Source of the DNA: Acidobacteriota bacterium
GTDB taxonomy: Bacteria > Acidobacteriota > Blastocatellia > Chloracidobacteriales > JADJPF01
Length of the DNA stretch: 41,791 bases
Reading direction: 5' to 3'
NCBI GenBank assembly: GCA_016213785.1
Contig: JACQZQ010000011.1
Location: forward strand, 64,518 to 106,308
Shown: in pieces, positions 3,364-41,713 of the stretch
How positions within the stretch are numbered: the stretch's first letter is position 1
Layout of the letters: every line of letters starts with the position of its first letter
The notes under the pieces: generated by a model
Database searches by the model: none
The model's input: the letters and a program-made list of their open reading frames with translations, nothing else
What the model was told of the DNA's origin: nothing
Made by a program: the position numbers and the translations under genes

Positions 3364-5067
3364 CTAAAAGATACTTAAACCTATTTTTTTACACAAATGA
3401 GTCGCTAGCTCAGCAATAGCCACTCGTTCTTGTTGCATTGTGTCACGGTCACGCACTGTTACAGTACTATCATCTAAAGACTGAAAATCAACAGTAAGAC
3501 AAAAAGGTGTACCAATTTCATCTTGTCTTCGGTAAAGTTTTCCTATGCCTGCTGTATCATCATAAACTACTCTTAAAAATGGTTGTAAGTCTTGTCTGAT
3601 TTTTTTAGCAACTTCAACTATCCTAGGCTCATTTTTCTTTAACGGGAAAACCGCTACTTTAATTGGTGCAAGCTGTGGATGTAGCTTTAATACTACTCTA
3701 GTAAATTCATCACATAGTTTAGCTGCTATCGGACGAACTTTCTTAAGTACATCTAAGCGCTCTGCCCCTTGCATATTACAAACATCTTCAAAGGCAAGTA
3801 GAGTTTGGGGTAATCCTGCTACAGCATTAGCTAAAGCGTCGCTTATAGATTTTAATTGTTCTAGTGATGGCCCTTCAGCTTTTAGATCTGCTCCTTTAGC
3901 TCTTTGTTTTTCTGCCTCAGCAACTTTCTTTTCTAAATTCTTTGCTGCTGCTGCACAAGTTTCTCTAAGCTGAGTCAAGTCAGATTCCTTAGGCTCGCTT
4001 ACTAGCTCTTCATTATAAGCTTCACATAAAAAAGCTAGCGTTGCACGGTCTGCGCCTGCTGAAGGCTCAATTACATAAGGAACATATCTAACACCTTTTT
4101 TATTGGTTTCTGGGTCAGTATATTGTTCATCAAAATAATCTAGTTTTTGTACACTATCAGTATTTTTTGATAGTTTAAGTCTTTCTAAATCTGCTTCAGC
4201 AATATCTTTACTATGAGCGGATAAATCATAATCCTGACGATTAGCTATACCTTCTAGCTCACTCCAGCCTAAAGAGCCTGGAAAAAGATACTCTATATCC
4301 GTAGTAGCTTTTGCATAATGGGCTAGCTCTGCTGTTTCTTGTTGGCGTTTTTGTAGACGACTTGGGTCTATTCCTAAACGAACATACCAGCTAAAACGCT
4401 GATCTATCCATTCTTGATGGAGTTGAACATCATCTTTTTCACCTGATTGAAGATACTTAGGCGGTTTACAGTAATATTCTATTTCCATTTGCTCAAATTC
4501 ACGAGTACGGAAAGTAAAATTTCCTGGGGTAATTTCATTACGAAAAGACTTACCAATTTGAGCAACACCAAAAGGTAATTTACGACGCATAGTTTGTTGA
4601 ACATTCATAAAGTTAACAAAAATACCTTGAGCCGTTTCTGGTCTTAAATAAGCAAGTCCTGAATCATCTTGTACTGGCCCTACATAAGTTTGAAACATTA
4701 AGTTAAAACTTCTAGGTTCGGTTAATTCTCCTGTACATTCTGGACAAGTTTTGCCCTGTATATGGTCAGAACGAAACCGCTTTTTACATTGTTTACAATC
4801 AACAAGTGGATCAGAAAATGTTGCTTCATGTCCTGAATAACGCCAAACTAGTCTATTCATCAGTATTGCAGCATCAAGCCCTTCCATATCTTCACGATCA
4901 TAGACTACACTGCGCCACCAAGCACGCTTAACATTATTTTTTAATTCAACTCCAAGTGGCCCATAATCCCAAGTTGAACCTATTCCACCATAAACTTCAC
5001 TGCTTTGAAAGATAAAGCCTCGTCGTTTAGATAACGAGACAATTTTTTCCATATCAGGGGCTACCAT
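3364..5067 (-). CDS. glyS: Glycine--tRNA ligase, dimeric class II type, with an extra coiled segment
   Basis: Charges tRNA-Gly. It is the alpha-2 type (eukaryote/Thermus-like), not the alpha2-beta2 GlyQS type: the N-terminus has KRRGFIFQSSEVYGGIGSTW and DYGPLGVELK. A Cys4 site (CKQCKKRF and CPEC, residues 91-111) is followed by LRPETAQGIFVNF and motif 2 around GKSFRNEITPGNFTFRTREF. Motif 3 is YVIEPSAGADRATLAFL near residue 340. The anticodon-binding domain begins at VVLKLHPQLAPIKVAVFPL (~458). Between them, residues ~355-457 are a Lys/Glu/Ala-rich helical insertion, absent or very short in typical bacterial members, which explains the 567-residue length. Start ATG at 5065-5067 has AAAGGA 8 bp upstream. 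It is divergent from the 5136 gene. Confidence 0.96.
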   Translation of the reverse strand: MVAPDMEKIVSLSKRRGFIFQSSEVYGGIGSTWDYGPLGVELKNNVKRAWWRSVVYDREDMEGLDAAILMNRLVWRYSGHEATFSDPLVDCKQCKKRFRSDHIQGKTCPECTGELTEPRSFNLMFQTYVGPVQDDSGLAYLRPETAQGIFVNFMNVQQTMRRKLPFGVAQIGKSFRNEITPGNFTFRTREFEQMEIEYYCKPPKYLQSGEKDDVQLHQEWIDQRFSWYVRLGIDPSRLQKRQQETAELAHYAKATTDIEYLFPGSLGWSELEGIANRQDYDLSAHSKDIAEADLERLKLSKNTDSVQKLDYFDEQYTDPETNKKGVRYVPYVIEPSAGADRATLAFLCEAYNEELVSEPKESDLTQLRETCAAAAKNLEKKVAEAEKQRAKGADLKAEGPSLEQLKSISDALANAVAGLPQTLLAFEDVCNMQGAERLDVLKKVRPIAAKLCDEFTRVVLKLHPQLAPIKVAVFPLKKNEPRIVEVAKKIRQDLQPFLRVVYDDTAGIGKLYRRQDEIGTPFCLTVDFQSLDDSTVTVRDRDTMQQERVAIAELATHLCKKIGLSIF

Positions 5068-7666: not shown

Positions 7667-8872
7667 ATGATAAAACCTACTGTTTTATTTATAACAGTAC
7701 TTTTTGCTATTTTAAGCCCAAGCTTTGTTTATAGTCAGTCAACCTCACAAATGCTAGCTAATGATAGTAGTATCGCTAAAAACATTACTACTAATTCAAC
7801 TAATTCAACTAATTCAACTAATTCAACTAACTCAACTAATCTAACTAACTCAATTAATCCAGTTAATCCAACTAACTCAACAGATAGTACTAAAGAAGCT
7901 TCTAACAATTCCTCACTAGAAGCAATGAGCCTTCAACTTAGAACACAACAACTGGAAATAGATGCTCTAAAGGAACAAGTTCAAAAGCTAGAAGCCTTGC
8001 TTGTAAGTGTAAGTAAAAAAGAGTCTGTTTATAATAACTATCCTAATAATGCTTCTGTAGCTAATAACACTAGTCCTAATGCTACACCAATCAATATTCC
8101 TGCACCTAGAATTAGACCTGCACCAGCAGAAGCTCGTGCAGCTAATGAACTATTACCTGGGCTTGGTCATATTGGTGCTGAGGTTGGGCTTTTAATAGGC
8201 GGAAGTCAAAATCCATTTAAGACAAACGAAGGATTTTTTGCTGGTGGGTTTATTGATCTCCCATTAAAAAGAATGTTTGGAGGAAAGATTTCTTATGAAA
8301 TTATGATTGGAGCACAAAGAACAGTTTCTACACAACAAAGTACCTCAGGAGTTATTGCTTTAGTCAATAGCGCTATAAATACTGCATTAGGAAACCCTCC
8401 AGGAGTTAATAATTTGCTCTCTCCTTTACCTGTAACTAACAAAGTTCGGGAACGGTTAACTATATTAACTGTTGTACCAGCAAGCTTTAAATATACTTCA
8501 TTATCTTTAGATAAACATAATATTCGTCCTTATGTAATAGTTGGCTTAGGTACATATGTGGGGCTAAGTAGCCAAAAGCTAGTAGATTTTGATGCTAATA
8601 AGTTTGTTAATAACCCTGCTTTAGGTAGCCTATTAAATGCTTTACTTAATGGAGCACAAGTAGGTGGGCTTGCACCTATTGCTCCTGAACTTCGTTCAAG
8701 GGGGCTTTCTGCTGGGCAAGGCGATTTTAGGTTTGGGTTAAATGCTGGAGGAGGTTTAGAGTTTCGTATTAGTCCTAAGTTTTCTTTAGGCATTGACTAT
8801 AGAATTAATAAGATCGAAGGCAAAAACGGAACATTTTCAACCTTTGCAGCAAAACCTACAGTGCATTTTTAA
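7667..8872 (+). CDS. Exported protein: Asn-Ser-Thr repeat, short coiled coil, beta-barrel
   Basis: A 401-residue envelope protein. The signal peptide is MIKPTVLFITVLFAILSPSF, with cleavage probably after VYS. Residues ~40-75 are a low-complexity Asn/Ser/Thr tract with five consecutive NST triplets, and residues ~85-120 form a heptad-like coiled coil (LRTQQLEIDALKEQVQKLEA). After a Pro/Ala linker the C-terminal ~250 residues look like an outer-membrane barrel: GHIGAEVGLLIGG, FGGKISYEIMIGAQ, IRPYVIVGLGTYVG, GGGLEFRISPKFSLGIDYRI and a terminal aromatic residue (PTVHF). The layout of coiled coil before a barrel resembles OmpA-like or trimeric porin proteins. Function is unknown. A long hairpin follows the stop codon. 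Confidence 0.75.
   Translation: MIKPTVLFITVLFAILSPSFVYSQSTSQMLANDSSIAKNITTNSTNSTNSTNSTNSTNLTNSINPVNPTNSTDSTKEASNNSSLEAMSLQLRTQQLEIDALKEQVQKLEALLVSVSKKESVYNNYPNNASVANNTSPNATPINIPAPRIRPAPAEARAANELLPGLGHIGAEVGLLIGGSQNPFKTNEGFFAGGFIDLPLKRMFGGKISYEIMIGAQRTVSTQQSTSGVIALVNSAINTALGNPPGVNNLLSPLPVTNKVRERLTILTVVPASFKYTSLSLDKHNIRPYVIVGLGTYVGLSSQKLVDFDANKFVNNPALGSLLNALLNGAQVGGLAPIAPELRSRGLSAGQGDFRFGLNAGGGLEFRISPKFSLGIDYRINKIEGKNGTFSTFAAKPTVHF
7786..7880 (+). repeat. 9-bp tandem repeat coding Asn-Ser-Thr
   Basis: A 9-bp unit (aattcaact and single-base variants) is repeated in phase about ten times, exact near 7797-7830 and decaying downstream (aactcaact, aatctaact, aatccagtt). It encodes NST triplets and then degenerate N-x-T/N. 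Because the unit is a multiple of three, slippage would change linker length without a frameshift. Confidence 0.85.
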
Positions 8873-9959: not shown

Positions 9960-11864
9960 TTATCGTTTTTTCTTCTTTTTGCTAGTATCTTCTTCCTCGT
10001 CTTGTTCTTCATCACCATCGTCGTCATCATCATCGCCGTCATCGTCGTCCTCGTCATCACCATCATCATCGTCATCATCCTCGCCATCGTCATCATCGCC
10101 GTCATCGTCCTCGTCGTCATCCTCATCCTCGTCGCCGTCATCGTCGTCCTCATCGCCGTCGTCCTCGTCGTCGTCGTCATAATCCTCGTCCTCGTCATCC
10201 TCATCCTCGTCGTCATCCTCATCCTCGTCGTCATCCTCATAATCCTCGTCCTCGTCATCCTCATCCTCGTCATAATCCTCGTCCTCGTCATCCTCATCCT
10301 CGTCGTCATCACCATAATCCTCATCCTCGTCGTCATCACCATCGTCATCATCACCATCATCCTCATCCTCGTCATAATCCTCGCCATCGTCGTCGCCATC
10401 GTCGTCATCCTCGTCCTCGTCGTCCTCATCATAATTTTCATTTTCATCAGAACTTGCTGAAGAACTACTAATACTGTTTTCATCGCTTGATTCATTTTCA
10501 TCAGAGCTTGAGTCTGAGTCTGGAGTTTGGCTAGATGTTTGAGAAGCTTTATTTATGACAGAATCAGAAAACATAGATCCTAACCAGTCTACAGCTTGTG
10601 AAATTAAAGTATTTCCACCTAATTCATTTAAGCCATATTTAATCATATCTTGAGTAGACTCACTTAGTCCTAGTTGAGAGATTAAAGTGCCTGCGCTAAG
10701 TTGACTTAAAATAGTTTGTGAAAGATATTTGGCGAGTAGACCGATAGACTCACGAATTAATTCGTCATTTTCAACATTATTTAAACAATTCATTACTAGT
10801 TTTTCAGCATTTACAGCAATATTAAGCTGTGTAAGTAATTTATCTAGTGAAGTAGTAAGTTCTTGTAATTTTTCTTGGCTAACAGATTTGTTAATTCCAA
10901 AAGCTCGCATTAATACTAGTGCTATACGGTACTCTACAGCGTATTTTCCCATAGCATCTAACATATCTGTATATTCTTCATCTGTCATTTTGGCGAAATC
11001 AGAATCAGATTCTTCTATAACGCTTTCTTCTTCCCCCCAATTTTCAGAACCATCTCCATCAGGAAAATTATCTAACTGTTTGATAATCCAGCTATCTGCA
11101 TCATTAAATTTTTCATTAATTAGGTAATCATAAGGAATATAGCAGTAGCCTTTATCTCCCCACTCATCACCCCAAGAGTTACGGACAATAAAAGTTCTAT
11201 CAGCCTCAGAATAGCCTACGCAAAGCATTGCATGTCCGCCGTGTTCTTTACGTGTAACTTCTTTTTTAGAAGGCATTGGAACTAAACCTTTTCTACGGTG
11301 TGAGTCAAATGATTCATAAAGCCAAATTCCAAAAATAATAGGATAGCCTTCTGCTAAGGCATGTTTCCAATCATGAAGAGTTAAAGGAATTAGTTTTACA
11401 TCTTCTACTAAAAAACCGCTGGCTTCTTCATAAGCTGATTTTTTAGGTTTTTCTAATACAATATCTTCATCAAAAGGCCAGGTTTCTTCTGAACATGCCC
11501 CCCATTTTTTTAAACCTTCGATTGCATCAGCAATAATTGACCCTCCATCTTCATCTTCCCATCCTTGTAGCTTACGAGCGTTATAATATATAAATAAACG
11601 ACTTACATCATAAGCCTTATTTCCCCTATAGCGTTTGACTAAGTATTCATATGCACCTGCTACAGCATTAGCAACACAACTACTAGTTTCACCTTGGTTT
11701 TCTATTGTGGTCATATATGGCCGTAAATCGACTTTTGCAGGTAATTCTGAATCTCCATATTTTCTAGCCGCATATTTAGCCGTTCCTGGTTTTGGGGCTG
11801 CAAACCTATAACCAGCAGCCTTTAACTCAGTGCCATCTGAACGAGTAATAGTAAGGTCTGACAT
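9960..11864 (-). CDS. Papain-like (C1 family) cysteine protease with long acidic repetitive tail
   Basis: A 634-residue three-part protein. Residues ~40-260 are a papain-like domain: ENQGETSSCVANAVAGA carries Gln57 and the nucleophile Cys63, GGHAMLCVGYSE carries His211, and FIVRNSWGDEWGDKGYCYIP carries Asn229, so the catalytic set is intact. Residues ~290-440 are a helical segment of unknown type. From ~450 the chain turns into Ser/Asp/Glu, and ~478-624 is almost only Asp, Glu, Gly and Tyr; the protein ends in a short Lys/Arg cluster (KKKKKR). No signal peptide is visible, so export would need another route. The ATG has AAGGA 7 bp upstream. The tail could bind divalent cations, act as an inhibitory or solubilising segment, or mediate electrostatic contacts; that is inference. 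Confidence 0.88.
   Translation of the reverse strand: MSDLTITRSDGTELKAAGYRFAAPKPGTAKYAARKYGDSELPAKVDLRPYMTTIENQGETSSCVANAVAGAYEYLVKRYRGNKAYDVSRLFIYYNARKLQGWEDEDGGSIIADAIEGLKKWGACSEETWPFDEDIVLEKPKKSAYEEASGFLVEDVKLIPLTLHDWKHALAEGYPIIFGIWLYESFDSHRRKGLVPMPSKKEVTRKEHGGHAMLCVGYSEADRTFIVRNSWGDEWGDKGYCYIPYDYLINEKFNDADSWIIKQLDNFPDGDGSENWGEEESVIEESDSDFAKMTDEEYTDMLDAMGKYAVEYRIALVLMRAFGINKSVSQEKLQELTTSLDKLLTQLNIAVNAEKLVMNCLNNVENDELIRESIGLLAKYLSQTILSQLSAGTLISQLGLSESTQDMIKYGLNELGGNTLISQAVDWLGSMFSDSVINKASQTSSQTPDSDSSSDENESSDENSISSSSASSDENENYDEDDEDEDDDDGDDDGEDYDEDEDDGDDDDGDDDEDEDYGDDDEDEDDEDEDYDEDEDDEDEDYEDDDEDEDDDEDEDDEDEDYDDDDEDDGDEDDDDGDEDEDDDEDDDGDDDDGEDDDDDDGDDEDDDDGDDDDDDGDEEQDEEEDTSKKKKKR
9990..10433 (-). 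repeat. Imperfect tandem repeat coding the Asp/Glu/Gly/Tyr tail
   Basis: About 440 bp built from GAT/GAC/GAG/GGC/TAT codons (read on the minus strand). Longer units recur: a ~34-base segment starting at 10178 (plus-strand coordinates) reappears at 10238, exactly 60 bp away, and again near 10271. All units are multiples of three in effect, since the frame stays open. Overlapping ORFs in this stretch on either strand are by-products of the repeat. Confidence 0.85.
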
Positions 11865-32946: not shown

Positions 32947-35900
32947 CTAGAGTATTTTAGAGCTTTTTTCATGCTCTAATAAATCTTCAATTACTTTACT
33001 TACAATTAAAAACTCATTTCTAATTTCTGAAAATAAATCATTAATTTCTATAAAAGATTTACTCTCTTCTAAATCAAAAAATAGTCTTTGCAAACTAATC
33101 AAACCAAGATTTCCACAAGAACCTTTTAATTTATGGGCTAAAAATATAGTATCGTCAAGGTTATGTTTGCTAATAGCTTTTGATAGTAAATCTAGTTGAT
33201 TTGGCATGTCTTTTAAAAAACTGTTAAATAGATCTTCAAAAAAACCTTCATCTTCATCGCTACTTAAAAATTTTAATTTTTCAATCAATGAATAATCTAA
33301 TCTATTACTATTATTAAGATCTTTAGGAATAGTTTCTTCTAAAATTATAGAAGTATTATTTTGAGCATTATTTTCAATCTTATCTGTTTGTTTTTTCAAG
33401 CGATTTAATGAATCAATAAGTTGGTTAATTTCAATAGGTTTACTAATATAATCATCCATCCCAACAGCTAAACATTCTGCTTTATTGCCCTGCATTGCTC
33501 CTGCGGTCATTGCAATAATTTTAGGGCGCTCTAATGATGAGTAAGTTTTAAGGATCTCGCGAGTAGCAGTTAACCCATCCATTTCAGGCATTTGTACATC
33601 CATCAAAATTACATCATATTTTTTTTGCTTTAACATTTCTAATACTTGCAACCCATTAAATACTACATCTGCTTTATAGCCTAGAACTTTTAGCAGGTTT
33701 ATTACTACTTTTTGATTTATAAAATTATCATCAGCTAATAGAATTTTTAAGGGTAAATCTTGAGCAAGTTTTGGTATCTGACTAAGCTTAGAAGTAGGCT
33801 TTTCATTAATATTATTTGAAGCTTTTTTAACTAAAATAGTAAAATTAAACTCAGACCCTTTGTTAGGCTCACTATTTAGCCAAATTTGCCCTTCCATTAA
33901 TTCACAAAGGCGTTTACTAATAGTTAAACCTAAACCTGTTCCTCCATATTTTCTTGTAATTGAGCTATCAACTTGTGTAAATGGTTGGAATAATTTAGCT
34001 TGCTGTTCAGGTGTAATCCCTATACCAGTATCTTTAACTTGAAAGAGTATTTCATAAGTAGTCTCATCAATTGCTTTACTACTTACTAGTAAACTTACTT
34101 GGCCTTCTTTAGTAAATTTTATAGAGTTATTTAATAAATTAACTAAGATTTGTTTTAATCTAGTTGCATCACCTAGTACATTATTAATAGTATTTTCACT
34201 TATATGATAAGTTAAGGTTAATCCTTTTTCTACTACTTGTACTTTAAGTAAAGATATTACCTGTTCAATGGTTTCTAAAAGATTAAAAGCCGTTTTTTCT
34301 AGCTCTAATTTTCCAGACTCTATTTTAGAAAAGTCTAGAATATCGTTAATAATTGTAAGTAAAGATTCTCCGCTGATGCGGATAGTTTCAATAAAATCTT
34401 TTTGTTTAGGCGTAATTTTGGTATTAGCAAGTAAGGTAGTCATACCAATAATGCCATTCATTGGGGTACGAATTTCATGGCTCATCATAGCTAAAAAAGC
34501 GCTTTTGGCATAACTAGCTTCAATGGCTTGGTTTTTAGCTATAATTGCTGATTTTTCAGAGACTCTTAATTGCTCAACAGTTTGTGCTAATTCATTAGTC
34601 CGTTTTTGAACTTTTTCCTCTAAGCCTAAATTTAGCTTTTTAAGGCTGTAAAATCTATATTGGACTAAGACTATTGCTAAGAGTATATAAATTAAGTAAG
34701 CCCACCAGCGTTTCCATAATGGAGGGTAAATAATTATCTTAATTGATGCTCCTATTTCATTCCATATTCCATCATTATTAGCGGCTTTTACTCTAAAAGT
34801 ATATTCTCCGGGAGGTAAACTACTGTAAATAACTTCTCTTTTTGTTTTTGCATCAATCCAATTATTATCTAAACCCTCTAGTTTATAAGCATACTGGTTA
34901 TTTTCTGGGGAGTTAAAATCTAGTGCTACATATTGAAAAAGCAAGTAGTTTTGATCATAGTTAAGATTAATAATAGTTTTTCTTAAGTCATTATTTCTTA
35001 AATCTTTAGCCCCAGAATTAGAACTAAATAAGCCTACGTTGGTTATACAAATTAAAGGAGGAGTTAAATTAATTTTAATATTATCTGGATGAAAAATATT
35101 TAACCCATTTATACCCCCAAAAAATATTTCACCTTTTTTGTTTTGATGAAAAGCATAACGATTAAACTCTTTATCCTGTAAATCATCGCTAAGATCAAAA
35201 GAAGTAAAACTATTATTACCTATATCATATTTAACTATTCCATTATCTGTGCTTAACCAGAAACTCCCTTTGCTATCTTCAAATATTCCATAAACATTTG
35301 GGTGTAGGTCTTCTTCATTTTTTACAGCAAGCCTAGTAAAATTATTTTCCTCTCTATTAAATTTACAGATTCTTCCACCTTTTGTAGCTATCCAAAAATT
35401 GCCTTTGCTATCGTTAAGAAAACAAGATGGTTCATTATCGGGTAGCGAATATTGGTCTTGAGGGTTATTTATATAAAGCTTATGTGTTTTATCTTTAAGA
35501 TTATAAACAACTAATCCATCACTTGTTCCAATCCAAAGATTTCCATAAGTATCTTCTTTTATAGCTTGAATTTCAGCAAACTCTCTAGCTTCAAATATAT
35601 GTCTTATAGGGATAATTTGTTTTCTATCAGCAGATATATTGTATAAAGTAGGTCGTTCTTTTGAAGCACCTACCCAAAGACTACCATCTTGGCTCTCATA
35701 AAAGGCGGTTACTGAGTGTATTTCTTTATTAAAAGTTGTAAATTTACCTGTTTTAGGGTCTAAAATTTGCAGATATGCAGAGCTTCCAGTTTCAATTTTT
35801 TGATTTTCTACTGTCCCATAAAACCCAATCCACAACTTTTTATTATTATCTTCATAAATTGAACGAACATTATTTGTAGCAGCAGAAAAAGGATCTTTAG

Positions 35901-37116
35901 GATCATAGTGATAAACCTTAAATAAACCTGTTTTACGGTCTAAAGAGTTTAAGCCTCCAAATTGTGTGCCTATCCAAACTATTTCTTCTGAGTCTTGCCA
36001 AATTCCACGAATATAGTTATTACTTAATGTATTTTCTAGATAAGGATTATGTTGATATAGCTCAAACTTCTTTTTATAAGGAGCATATTTACTTATGCCA
36101 TATACATTAGTCCCTACCCAAATAACATTAGACCTGTCTTTATAAAAAGTGTTTATATCGTTAGCTATTAGGCTTTTAGGGTTTTTAGGGTTATTACTGT
36201 AGTGAGTAAATTCTTTTGTTTCTAGGTTTAAGACTTCTATTCCAAATAACCTTGTCCCAATCCATAAAGTTTTTTCATCATAAAGCAGTAGACCTGTTAA
36301 TAAATTAGTCGTTAATCTTTTAGGATCTTCTGGTGCTCTTTCATAATAAAAAACTAGTTGTCCTGTTTTTGTATCTACTTCATATAAACCTTCTGTGGAT
36401 GTAGATATAAAAAGATGTCCATTAGGGTGAAGTAGCAATTTGCAGGCAAAATGGCCTGAGGATACTTTATTTGTCGGGTTTTTAAAATTTAAATACTTAG
36501 TAAAAACCTCTGTTAAAGGGTCAAATTTATATAATCCATAAGCACCATTAACCCATATTTTACCCTGAGCATCAAAAACTAAAGAAATTGCAGCCGTATC
36601 TTGAAGATTTCCAAGGTTTTTATCTACAGGTATATATTTAGAAATTTTCTTTGTACTAATGCTTAATTTTATTAGCCCTGATGATGAAGTAGCTATCCAA
36701 AGAGAGTTATTAGGCGCATTAAGAAACCCTAGTATTGTTCCTAGTTCTAGGTTCCCAAAATGAATGAATGAATTAGTTTTAGAATCAAATAAATCTATAC
36801 CTCCTAGATAAGTTCCTACCCAAAGCCTATTTTCTAGGTCTATATGTAGGCTAGAAATACGGGAATTAAATAGGCTTGAAGGATTATTAGGACTATTTAA
36901 GTATGTAGTAAAATTAAACCCGTCATATTTATTAAGCCCTCCATCAGTTCCTACCCAAAGAAACCCATCTTTATCTTGTAAAAAAACATTTACACTATTA
37001 TCTGATAGACCAGAATTTTTACTAATATTTTCAAAAGAAATATTAGTTTGTGCTATGGCTATATTAAAAATAGCCATAAAAAAAATTCCAATAGTGGCAA
37101 AAAAAATCTTTTTCAT
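32947..37116 (-). CDS. Hybrid sensor histidine kinase with Reg_prop sensor, receiver and HPt domains
   Basis: 1389 residues, a one-protein phosphorelay. A signal-type N-terminus ([20 protein letters not shown]) leads into about fourteen two-component-regulator propeller repeats (pattern D-x-x-G-x-LWVGT-x-x-GL, residues ~40-700), then a Y_Y_Y domain ([32 protein letters not shown]). A membrane helix follows near 805 ([20 protein letters not shown]). The kinase has [16 protein letters not shown] with the phospho-His near 878, [20 protein letters not shown] and [12 protein letters not shown]. The receiver has [12 protein letters not shown] and [12 protein letters not shown] with phospho-Asp near 1170. 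The C-terminal HPt domain has [14 protein letters not shown]. There is no DNA-binding output, so a separate regulator must receive the phosphate. A TTG at 37131 is the only longer start. Confidence 0.95.
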
Positions 37117-37549
37117 ATAAAGATAAATCAACTATCTAAAGATTTTAGAGCACTTCATTAATTAATCAGCTAAATAAAAGCTTGATACTCTTTAGTCTTA
37201 GCCATAAACATTTTAGCTTACAAATTAAGATTTTTTACAGAATACCAGTTTTAATATTTTTATTATATGAAAAGTCTTAGACAAAGACCAATTTTAACCT
37301 CAACTAATTTTTAACTAAATCTTAATGAATTTTTAACTAAATCTTAATAAATTTTTAATTAATTCTTAACTAATGAAGAATACTAAAGATAGTATTTTCT
37401 ATAATATCTAATGAAAGCTGACCTACGCTTGACTATGTTACTAAGTAATTTTATAGTGATTGGGTTTATTCACTAATACCTCTCGATTTTCTAACGACAT
37501 TTTTAGTTATTTAATCATTTTAAGAATATAGGGGCAAAAATAAAGGCGT
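37117..37549. other. Divergent intergenic region of hybrid kinase and FG-GAP genes
   Basis: About 430 bp, very AT-rich, no ORF of note. It contains the hexamer array at 37311-37371 and a candidate -10 box TATAAT (37400-37405) without a recognisable -35, as expected for an activator-dependent promoter reading toward the FG-GAP gene. Confidence 0.6.
37306..37371 (+). promoter_or_regulatory. Six-copy, 11-bp-period TTAAYN array (OmpR/PhoB-type box)
   Basis: TTAACT, TTAATG, TTAACT, TTAATA, TTAATT, TTAACT begin at 37311, 37322, 37333, 37344, 37355 and 37366, exactly 11 bp apart. A weaker TCAACT at 37300 continues the phase. Seen another way, it is a 22-bp unit repeated three times. Spacing and core resemble PHO boxes bound head-to-tail by PhoB/PhoP-family response regulators (Bacillus PhoP core TTAACA). 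It lies midway between the divergent genes. Confidence 0.65.
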
Positions 37550-40500
37550 ATGGCAAGACATTTTTTTAAACTGCTGATAGCTATTATATTAGCTATTTCA
37601 TTAGCAACTTTTACTTTAGCACAAGATTTTGCTTTTGGCGGAAGAGGGAATACAAATAATGGTTTTAATAGTTCAGTCCCTTTACCTGCTCAACCAATTA
37701 CTAGCTTTGGGGTTACAGGCTCACAGTTAATTAATTTTGGAGCATTTAGAATTCCTGCATATCTTAACACCACTCTTAACCAAGGTCGGGGAGTTCAAGC
37801 TACTGTTAATGCTACAGACCCAGGACAAAGATTTAATGCTTTAGATATTGGAGTAGGCGATTTTGATGCTGATGGGCTTAATGACATAGTTTCTGTTGCT
37901 GATGATACAGGTAATTTTACTGGCGGCACAGCATCAACTGGCACAATAGTGCTTTTTAAGGGGATTGGAGATGGTACTTTTGGTTTGCCTCTATCTCTTT
38001 CAACTACATCACCTCCTACTTCTTTAGCTGTTGGAGATATCAACCTAGATGGTTTAACAGATTTTGTTGTTGGTGAAAGAACAGGTGTAGAAGTCTTTCG
38101 CGGAAGTGCTTTTAGCTTATCTCCTAATAGAGTATTTTTACCATCAGCTAGTGCTAATCCAGTCATATCTGTATCTTTTGGTAGGCTAAATGGGGATTCT
38201 TTTACAGATATTGTGGCAGCGCATAGATCGCTTAACCCAACTACCCCAGCAGAGGTAGAAATTTTTATAACTAACCCTGCCACTAGCCAATATTTACCAG
38301 GTAGCACAATTATAAATACTACAGGCTCTATTGGTTTTGATTTTGCTGGTCTACCCATTCCATCGCCTCGTGCAGTTTCTACATTTGTTTTTGCAGGCTC
38401 AGATGCTGATATTGATATAGGTATAGCTACTAGTATGGGTGCGGAAATATTTGAGAATATGACTACTAACCCAAATACACCTATGTTTATGGCTCAAATG
38501 ACAAGAGTTGCTGGACAAGTCCCAGTTGCTTTTCTTCCAGGCGACCTTAACAATGATAAACGTCAAGATTTTGTTGTTCTAAACTATGGTTCTGGGACTA
38601 TTACTAGTTATATAGGAAGTGATTTTGGCTATTTTGGCCCAATAACTTCACAAACAAACCAAAATCCAATTAGCGGGACTTTTCTTAATTTTGATGGCAA
38701 TGCTTTACCAGATCTTTTAGTTGCAAATTTTTCTACTCTTAATGTAGGGGTTCCAAGCCCAGGTTTAGTTAGTGTGCTTGTTGGAACTGGGACAGGTGCT
38801 TTTAATCCTTCAACTGTATTTGGTCGTTTTAGTAATAACCCTATGGGAAGCGGAATTGATGCTGCTTTTAACCCTCAATCGGTTGCTGTAGGCGTTTTTG
38901 ACCCAATGAATGCTACATCTACTAACCAAAGAGATGATCTTTTAGTTGCAGATGGTTTTATTGCTACAGGTGCTCTTGCAGGTATTGCTAGTCCTGGTGG
39001 TGTACTTTATTTAGATAGTAATCGTGGCTATAACCCTTATTTAATAAAGGTTTTAACCGCAGTGTCATTATCTGCTGATTTTGATGGTGCTGGTGGTCGT
39101 AATGATTTAGCTGTAATTGATCAATATACTGGGACGCTTTTTGTATTAATGAATATTTCTACTACTACTGCTCCTACAGTAAGTACCATAATGCTAAGAG
39201 ATATTTTTACTAATAGAAATATTCTTCCTACCTCTGCAACAGCCTTTACTGACCCGCAGACATCTTTAAGCAATATTGCTATTACTGATGTAGGTACTCC
39301 ACAAAATACCAATGGTATAGGCCAAATTATTGTTGGAATAAATAATGGTAGAGGATTTTCTAATAATAACCGTCAATTTCGTCAATTTGTTGCTAGTGCT
39401 GGGGCTACTAATATTATTAACGCTGATTTTAGAGGTACTGGTGTTGCGTCAGATTTAGTTTATGTTGACTATCAAAATAACTTAGTAGGTGTTGCTCTTA
39501 ATAATGGAGGTAATGCTTTTCTTTCTCCAAGGCTTAGAGAAACAGGTGGTTTTGTCCCAGTATCTGCGGCAGTTGGTGATGTTAATGATGATGATAATAT
39601 GGATGTAATGGTACTTAATAGCGGCATTGCGCCAAACCAAACTTTAGGAAATCAATCAATTGTTTCTGTGCTTTTAGGTCAAGGTAATGGTCAACTTGTT
39701 GCTACAGGTTCACTCTTAAATGTTCCTAACTTTGGGCTTTCAATAGTTGGAGGCTTAGCAATACAAGACTCTACAAATGTTCCAAGAGTAGTAGACTTTA
39801 ATAATGATGGCTTTCCTGATTTTGCTGTAAACTCAACTCGTGGTGGTGCAGGTATTTTAGGAACTATTAATGTTCCTACAGTATCTTTAATATTAAATCG
39901 CCCAGATACACCTGGACAATTTATTGTTAGACCTCCAGTTGCTTTATTTGATGATACTGTGACAACAGGGCTTGGTAATGTTGGAAATGGGGCTGTTATG
40001 GCGCTAGATGATGCAGTAGGCGGGCCTCAGTTTGTCTCTGGTCGTGGTGCTACTACTAATATTTTAAGCGGAATCCAACCAGGTATTGGTGTAGGTGGTG
40101 CTAATTACACTTTAGCCGTTTCTGACTTTAATGCCGATGGCGCAACAGATTTAGTTGTAACTGGTTCTGTTAGAATCCCAACTGCATTTGGTGGAAATAT
40201 CCTTACTACAAACTATCGCTCATCAATCTTTCTAGTAGGTAATACAACTAATGGATCTATTAGAGTGTCAAGACCTTTAAGAGTAAGAGAATACACACTT
40301 AACACCCTTGGCACAGCAGATCCTTTTGCTAATGGTGGAGATACTTTTGTTGCTTGTGCTGTAGGGAATTTTGATTTAGCAAATAATAATGTCCCAGATG
40401 TAGTACATATTTCTGCTAGTGGTAGTATTTATATAGATGCTAATATTACTTCTGTTCTAAACCATGCTCCAATAGTTCGTATTAATCGTAATGACTTAAA

Positions 40501-41713
40501 CGCTCCTAGAGGAATGGGAAGAAAAGTAATTATTACATCTGGTCAGTCTGCTACAATTCCAGTAAGTGCTTCAGATGTTGATATACCTGCTGATAAATTA
40601 ACCTTTAGTTTATCTCCCCCTCCAACAAATGAACAAATCCCATCTTTTATAAGCTTAAGAGATAATGGGGATAATACAGCAGCAGTACTTATTAGTAGTG
40701 CAGATATAAATAGAGGGCCAGGTGATTTAGTTGTAAGGGTTGGAGTACAAGCTAGTGATAGTACTAGCATTGGTACACCAGGAGAAAGATTATCTTTAAT
40801 TGGTAAAGATTTCTTTACTTTAATAGTAAGACCTAAATCACCTCCTACAATTGCACCTATTGCAAATGTATCTATTGAATCAGGAAAAAGCCAAAATATT
40901 AATTTAACTGTTAATGAGCCTGATGGAGGGCAAGTTGCTATATCTAGAAAATGTGATAAAGATAGTTATGTGTCAATAACAGGGACTACTTTAACTATTT
41001 CTCCTAGTGACGCTGACATAGGAACTAATATCTGTACACTAACTGCAAGTGGCCCAACAGGCTTAAGGGCTACTACATCTTTTGTTATTACTGTAAGAGG
41101 GCGAAATATTGCTCCTATTATTCGTGAAATAACAGATCAAAATGTTAGAGCCGGTGGAGCACCTATAAATATTGATATTCTAGCCGAAGGCTCTCCAGGA
41201 GATAGTTTAAGGCTTACTCTAACTACAGTACTAGGCTTTGTTACACTTTCAGATAATGGAAATGGAAGAGGTCTTTTACGTATTTCACCTAGTTTAACTG
41301 ATTCACAGGGTGGTAGGGTAACTGTAACTGCAACTAATAGTGGTGGATTAAGTGCTTCTACTTCATTTAATGTTAGTGTTCAGAGATCTGTAACTATAGG
41401 CAATGCAATATTTGATACTAAAGGTAAACAACTTTTTATTAGTGGCAGTGGTTTTGGTACAAGCGGAGCTAAAGTTACTGTAAATGGTCAAGACGTTTCA
41501 TCACGTATTAGCGGTCAGTCTGATAATTCTATTACTGTAAAAGGTGGTAAAAAGAAATTAAATCTCAAGACTGGGCCAAATAATGTTGTTGTAACTGCTG
41601 GAGGTGTTACTTCTAATACTTTTGTTGTAAACCTACTACAGACAAGAGATGGTCAACTACCTGCCCCTAAAGGGGACAGGCTTGAAGGAATAAAAGCCAA
41701 CAAGCCCAGTTGA
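37550..41713 (+). CDS. Large secreted FG-GAP/VCBS repeat protein with Ig-like and IPT/TIG-like C-terminus
   Basis: 1387 residues. The signal peptide is FKLLIAIILAISLATFTLAQ. From ~100 to ~970 there are about eleven FG-GAP-type blades with Asp-rich calcium loops (DFDADGLNDIVS, DINLDGLTDFVV, DLNNDKRQDFVV, DVNDDDNMDVMV, DFNNDGFPDFAV, DFNADGATDLVV). This predicts one or two beta-propellers like those of integrin-alpha. A short linker leads to Ig/cadherin-like modules (~980-1280; APIANVSIESGKSQNINLTV, APIIREITDQNVRAGGAP) and a final IPT/TIG-like domain (LFISGSGFGTSGAKVTVNGQ). No LPXTG or obvious type IX sorting domain is seen, so it is probably surface-exposed or released. Function may be adhesion or polymer binding. 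It may be controlled by the array upstream, shared with the hybrid kinase. Confidence 0.88.
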   Translation: MARHFFKLLIAIILAISLATFTLAQDFAFGGRGNTNNGFNSSVPLPAQPITSFGVTGSQLINFGAFRIPAYLNTTLNQGRGVQATVNATDPGQRFNALDIGVGDFDADGLNDIVSVADDTGNFTGGTASTGTIVLFKGIGDGTFGLPLSLSTTSPPTSLAVGDINLDGLTDFVVGERTGVEVFRGSAFSLSPNRVFLPSASANPVISVSFGRLNGDSFTDIVAAHRSLNPTTPAEVEIFITNPATSQYLPGSTIINTTGSIGFDFAGLPIPSPRAVSTFVFAGSDADIDIGIATSMGAEIFENMTTNPNTPMFMAQMTRVAGQVPVAFLPGDLNNDKRQDFVVLNYGSGTITSYIGSDFGYFGPITSQTNQNPISGTFLNFDGNALPDLLVANFSTLNVGVPSPGLVSVLVGTGTGAFNPSTVFGRFSNNPMGSGIDAAFNPQSVAVGVFDPMNATSTNQRDDLLVADGFIATGALAGIASPGGVLYLDSNRGYNPYLIKVLTAVSLSADFDGAGGRNDLAVIDQYTGTLFVLMNISTTTAPTVSTIMLRDIFTNRNILPTSATAFTDPQTSLSNIAITDVGTPQNTNGIGQIIVGINNGRGFSNNNRQFRQFVASAGATNIINADFRGTGVASDLVYVDYQNNLVGVALNNGGNAFLSPRLRETGGFVPVSAAVGDVNDDDNMDVMVLNSGIAPNQTLGNQSIVSVLLGQGNGQLVATGSLLNVPNFGLSIVGGLAIQDSTNVPRVVDFNNDGFPDFAVNSTRGGAGILGTINVPTVSLILNRPDTPGQFIVRPPVALFDDTVTTGLGNVGNGAVMALDDAVGGPQFVSGRGATTNILSGIQPGIGVGGANYTLAVSDFNADGATDLVVTGSVRIPTAFGGNILTTNYRSSIFLVGNTTNGSIRVSRPLRVREYTLNTLGTADPFANGGDTFVACAVGNFDLANNNVPDVVHISASGSIYIDANITSVLNHAPIVRINRNDLNAPRGMGRKVIITSGQSATIPVSASDVDIPADKLTFSLSPPPTNEQIPSFISLRDNGDNTAAVLISSADINRGPGDLVVRVGVQASDSTSIGTPGERLSLIGKDFFTLIVRPKSPPTIAPIANVSIESGKSQNINLTVNEPDGGQVAISRKCDKDSYVSITGTTLTISPSDADIGTNICTLTASGPTGLRATTSFVITVRGRNIAPIIREITDQNVRAGGAPINIDILAEGSPGDSLRLTLTTVLGFVTLSDNGNGRGLLRISPSLTDSQGGRVTVTATNSGGLSASTSFNVSVQRSVTIGNAIFDTKGKQLFISGSGFGTSGAKVTVNGQDVSSRISGQSDNSITVKGGKKKLNLKTGPNNVVVTAGGVTSNTFVVNLLQTRDGQLPAPKGDRLEGIKANKPS

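Follow-up and report, generated by a model that had tools for sequence, protein, structure and literature searches.

The window, the whole stretch of 41,791 nucleotides analysed here, includes an intergenic region of 418 bp and 24% GC from which two long genes diverge, and within this region lies a tandem array of short, evenly phased repeats. The features of the locus are as follows.

32947-37131, minus strand: hybrid histidine kinase of 1394 aa, the divergent neighbour, with Reg_prop propeller, Y_Y_Y, HisKA, HATPase, receiver and Hpt domains
37300-37310, plus strand: degenerate seventh unit, TCAACTAATTT, with one mismatch (TCAAC), in register with the array
37311-37376, plus strand: six-unit TTAAY-N6 array, TTAACTAAATC TTAATGAATTT TTAACTAAATC TTAATAAATTT TTAATTAATTC TTAACTAATGA, its half-sites covering 37311-37370
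37400-37405, plus strand: TATAAT, a possible -10 element 30 bp after the last half-site, placing the array just upstream of its -35 position
37429-37457, plus strand: TTGACT-N17-TATAGT, a sigma-70-like pair (consensus match only) 58 bp downstream of the last half-site, an alternative FG-GAP promoter
37550-41713, plus strand: FG-GAP-repeat secreted protein of 1387 aa, the probable target, to which the array points

A phased array between divergent genes

Six perfect TTAAY half-sites begin on the plus strand at 37311, 37322, 37333, 37344, 37355 and 37366, a period of exactly 11 bp, and together with the degenerate unit ahead of them the strand reads, from 37300 onward, TCAACTAATTT TTAACTAAATC TTAATGAATTT TTAACTAAATC TTAATAAATTT TTAATTAATTC TTAACTAATGA. 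A sequence-only reading of this DNA had reported six hexamers at exact 11-bp spacing at 37306-37371. Number and spacing are confirmed and the array does lie there, with its left end about 5 bp off; the imperfect seventh unit comes in addition. The array exceeds what shuffled and simulated sequence yields: dinucleotide shuffles of the whole window gave no array matches even with 3 mismatches tolerated, and when the intergenic region was simulated 20,000 times with a first-order Markov model, no period between 6 and 22 gave a chance run longer than 4 units, against the 6 observed. An operator of the OmpR/PhoB family is expected to repeat a short core directly, with a period of about 10-11 bp, and the array has this form.

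The ATG of the FG-GAP gene lies about 180 bp beyond the array end, and the first codon of the kinase is equally distant (180 bp), so that a response-regulator operator at this position could serve the divergent kinase rather than the FG-GAP gene. We consider this unlikely, given that the array is directed at the FG-GAP gene, and reversed relative to the kinase gene, and that most other arrays in the genome point to the gene they precede. The kinase itself belongs to a large paralogous set of hybrid propeller kinases, with 201 matches in its own genome. No OmpR-type DNA-binding domain was found in its sequence, and a search for its orthologue in the sister genome described below found none.

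Recurrence in the genome and in a close relative

Across the 132 contigs of the genome (6.4 Mb in all), TTAAY-N6-TTAAY-N6-TTAAY matched 27 times, compared with 4 times for the same pattern written backward. Overlapping matches within one array are counted several times, so these 27 represent about 15 distinct places, and some of the three-unit matches are palindromes or simple repeats. None of the roughly 15 places lies wholly inside a called open reading frame, and two touch the end of one. With both gaps free to vary from 3 to 9, matches totalled 312 versus 244 for the control, and the 6,6 gap pair, with 27 matches where the other gap pairs average about 6, was about 4.6-fold over-represented. 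The longest arrays are that of the window and one on contig C42, with six units each, followed by four-unit arrays on C52, C97 and C31. In the other arrays the spacers differ but the half-site and the period are the same, and the base preceding TTAA is mostly C or T.

Many arrays face a gene start about 60-180 bp downstream. Orientation is not uniform, as the array on C97 points away from the gene start closest to it, and array-to-promoter spacing differs among loci; a constant distance from array to -10 element, looked for across loci, was not found. The array-flanking genes that we examined encode envelope or general functions, namely a pilin, an S49 peptidase, an outer-membrane barrel, a metallopeptidase and ExbB. 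Inspection of the regions upstream of kdpFABC and of an FG-GAP paralogue on contig C96 found no array in either.

Among 39 genomes searched, the same excess appears only in the same-genus genome G001 (Blastocatellia MAG nzgw73, 87% complete), where three TTAAY-N6 units occur 22 times versus 3 for the reversed pattern; most other relatives have none. A scan of genome contigs gave only this sister MAG and one distant match. With E<=1 as the threshold, a profile search matched the two congeners 26 and 25 times, genome G002 6 times and others 0-3 times; the counts for the congeners are partly circular, as the profile was built from ten arrays picked for TTAAY in those two genomes. The reversed-pattern control and the comparison of orthologues are free of this circularity, and while low G+C lifts the background in this genus, the reversed control has equal composition.

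Two orthologous promoters carry arrays in both genomes. One is the intergenic region shared by a pilin gene and a divergent gene for a beta-propeller protein of 662-671 aa (C52, and C836 in G001), with four units in each genome; here the half-sites are identical at 18/20 letters and the spacers at 14/24 (one-sided Fisher p=0.02). The other (C115, and C308 in G001) has a four-unit TTWAY array ahead of an orthologous LuxR-type HTH gene of 82-83 aa. Arrays in G001 also precede a pilin pair (C277 of that genome) and a CheY-like gene (its C58).

These results bear on two explanations that invoke no dedicated regulator. The array might be an AT-rich tandem duplication or slippage product with no regulatory role, as its internal 22-bp repeat (92% match), the 24% GC of the surrounding DNA and its absence at the FG-GAP orthologue of G001 would suggest. 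The sequence-only reading had named a lack of recurrence and of conservation in relatives as the sign of such an origin, and we find neither: both genomes show the excess, and two orthologous promoters share arrays. Because different spacers accompany the same half-site and period elsewhere, because the pattern is enriched over its reverse and over other spacings, and because orthologous promoters keep half-sites better than spacers, we judge a simple duplication quite unlikely. Alternatively, phased A/T tracts might curve the DNA intrinsically or act as an extended UP element, and so raise promoter activity without a specific regulator. The 11-bp period is close to the helical repeat and AT-rich DNA does lie upstream of genes, but the core of each unit is TTAA, and a TpA step interrupts A-tracts; the reversed pattern, moreover, is equally AT-rich and is not enriched. 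This second explanation is accordingly highly improbable.

Recurrence outside coding sequence is thus accompanied by conservation at orthologous promoters that is only partial. The G001 counterparts of the C108 (class-V aminotransferase/TPR) and C34 (exbB/recN) intergenic regions have no array, and the FG-GAP orthologue, 84% identical and set in a different upstream neighbourhood, lacks one too. These absences indicate that regulon turnover seems to be rapid, and the target in the window is not a conserved one. With its sister orthologue lacking the array, the FG-GAP gene may be a recent target, one lost in G001, or one not selected at all, and the idea that it is under strong selection as a target finds no support. 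At two G001 loci (L154 and L023) we also observed a repeat like GGGCGAACCTATGTGTTCGCCC, which precedes exbB, and a related repeat that precedes the FG-GAP orthologue; this may be a mobile miniature element.

Phosphate control and candidate regulators

The genome encodes PhoB next to phoU and pstS on contig C58. The promoter of pstS carries a five-unit array of its own, TTTACACACCT GTTACAGACTT TTTACAGGCGA TTAACAGGCTT GTTACAGCCC, probably the genuine Pho box of this genome:

L042 (contig C58), about 1980-2080, upstream of pstS: KTWACA x5 box (TTTACA/GTTACA/TTTACA/TTAACA/GTTACA), 11-bp period

On a position weight matrix made from 35 array units, the best three-unit score was -10.5 bits in the pstS region versus +33.5 bits for the window array, and the array does not share the pstS motif, as a Pho box would. 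A genome search for three TTNACA units at 11 bp gave 0 matches, although this pattern excludes the GTTACA of the pst box and hence carries no evidence about PhoB.

Could PhoB nevertheless bind the array and place the FG-GAP gene under phosphate-starvation control? TTAAC resembles the Bacillus PhoP box, a likeness that counts for this possibility. So do the shared 11-bp head-to-tail geometry, the similarity of TTAAC to cyanobacterial SphR boxes (PMC1906773), and the presence of phoB beside phoU and pstS. Against it, the pstS promoter has a different five-unit box that scores poorly on the array matrix, the invariant ACA of the pst boxes is missing from the arrays, and no phosphate gene is among the array-flanking genes examined. 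We regard binding by PhoB as very unlikely, and rejected membership of the Pho regulon on the ground of the different box at pstS. The sequence-only reading had suggested phosphate control of the surface protein and proposed checking whether the repeats recur and are shared by pst genes: TTAAY-N6 arrays do recur, but phosphate control is not supported, since the pstS box differs and misses the array profile. The resemblance to a Bacillus PhoP box, which it also drew, is one of several TTAA-core look-alikes with an 11-bp period, CtrA, SaeR and SphR sites being the others.

We next consider which regulators might bind. Eleven OmpR-type (Trans_reg_C) DNA-binding domains exceed the cut-off in the genome and four are detectable in G001, two of these being incomplete where a contig ends. 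The regulators common to both are PhoB, C87/C730 (89%), C100/C276 (83%) and C122/C133 (partial). The divergent promoter of C87/C730 itself has kept three units of 11 bp, TTAAC/TTAGC/TTAAC, in both genomes:

L128, 5884-6049, and L087, 4827-4990: C87/C730 boxes, promoter of a kinase/response-regulator operon

The C87 promoter matches the array profile at p=0.005, the floor of a 200-shuffle test, and by eye the recognition helix of the regulator resembles that of PhoB. The KdpE-like paralogues C52, C113 and C50 also have TTAAY boxes at their own promoters. That of C113 (L077, C113:8000-16000; 4518 to 4913, minus strand) bears several phased TTRAY repeat blocks, which suggests that this regulator is autoregulated. 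Only a partial, C122-type KdpE-like member (C133) was found in the 87% complete G001; with no C113 orthologue found there, C113 alone cannot explain the G001 arrays and was set aside as the common factor. Both are candidates only, and we place the C87 regulator slightly ahead of a KdpE-like regulator. C100/C276, nearest to CpxR, is unlikely to bind 11-bp arrays, as its own conserved TTAAC repeats (L129 4373-4573; L134 2727-2932) appear to be roughly 10 bp apart. The CpxR-like gene (L129/L134) is divergent from one whose small secreted product looks like CpxP by eye.

Likeness to known operators and a proposed mechanism

Several described operators share elements with the array. CtrA recognizes TTAA-N7-TTAA, an 11-bp TTAA spacing, and has in common with the array the TTAA core, the period, an OmpR-family regulator and a pilin promoter with several sites (PMC11264516); it differs in that CtrA sites come as one or few pairs rather than six consecutive units, and in a different phylum. 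Ten of the 11 OmpR-type regulators were scored against the CtrA model NF045991 and reached about 115-177 bits, PhoB highest, compared with a cut-off of 350, and we therefore rejected membership of a CtrA regulon. The SaeR site of Staphylococcus, GTTAA-N6-GTTAA, which controls surface and secreted proteins (PMC5083920), agrees with the array in its TTAA core, N6 gap and 11-bp period, but usually has only two half-sites, carries G before TTAA where the array has mostly C or T, and belongs to another lineage. The cyanobacterial SphR box, CTTAACCT repeated with a 3-bp linker, shares the CTTAAC core, the period and three or more tandem units (PMC1906773), whereas SphR targets are phosphate genes and here pstS has another box. 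The PHO box bound by E. coli PhoB is likewise built from direct repeats of 11 nt arranged head to tail (PMC4415409), with a different core, CTGTCAT, at phosphate genes. By analogy the array would work like the CtrA, SaeR and SphR operators, and we do not assign it to any one of them.

Its period, its recurrence and its conservation at orthologous promoters support reading the array as the predicted operator of an OmpR/PhoB-family winged-helix response regulator, which we think is probably correct; they likewise bear out the head-to-tail geometry of this family proposed from the sequence. We infer both the binder, from the OmpR family, and any direction of regulation. The predicted operator is a new, genus-restricted case of a known type. 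Each TTAAYNA half-site would take one effector domain, and the 11-bp period would line up six or seven protomers in head-to-tail order. Loading along this strip is expected to be cooperative, since effector domains of the family bind 11-nt direct repeats head to tail (PMC4415409), and would adjust transcription of the downstream FG-GAP gene and possibly of the divergent kinase. The array may belong to a small regulon that this Blastocatellia genome and its congener have in common, and whose conserved members would include the pilin/beta-propeller divergent promoter and the small LuxR-type regulator gene.

More tentatively, a genus-restricted Blastocatellia regulator may use unusually long TTAAYNA arrays (four to seven units) as a graded cooperative switch for surface structures (the pilin neighbourhood, the giant FG-GAP protein, an outer-membrane protein) and, downstream, for a small regulator of the LuxR type. 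That would make it a surface regulon like those of CtrA or SaeR, of independent origin in Acidobacteriota. If so, a genus represented here by draft genomes alone would gain a first cis-regulatory word, one candidate regulon would link genes associated with pilins to a giant FG-GAP surface protein, and 11-bp repeats with a TTAA core would have arisen, apparently independently, at surface genes beside those of CtrA and SaeR. Otherwise, this is ordinary two-component regulation.

Repression is a live option at the FG-GAP promoter, because extra upstream CtrA sites repress pilA in Caulobacter (PMC11264516). The sequence-only reading favoured activation from a TATAAT 28 bp downstream with no -35 element. 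The TATAAT at 37400 indeed has no TTGACA-like hexamer at its -35 position, but its distance is 30 bp, an alternative pair lies at 37429-37457, and the specific promoter model is unsupported. Neither promoter call is strong, as chance alone should produce more than one sigma-70-like pair in the intergenic region (mean 3.6), and a scan at chance level does not separate activation from repression.

Elsewhere in the window, a 9-bp repeat, ACTAATTCA, occurs ten times at 7790-7881 within the open reading frame 7667-8872, and a long imperfect array of TCATCG-type repeats at 9994-10432, in the minus-strand open reading frame 9960-11864, probably encodes an acidic low-complexity stretch.
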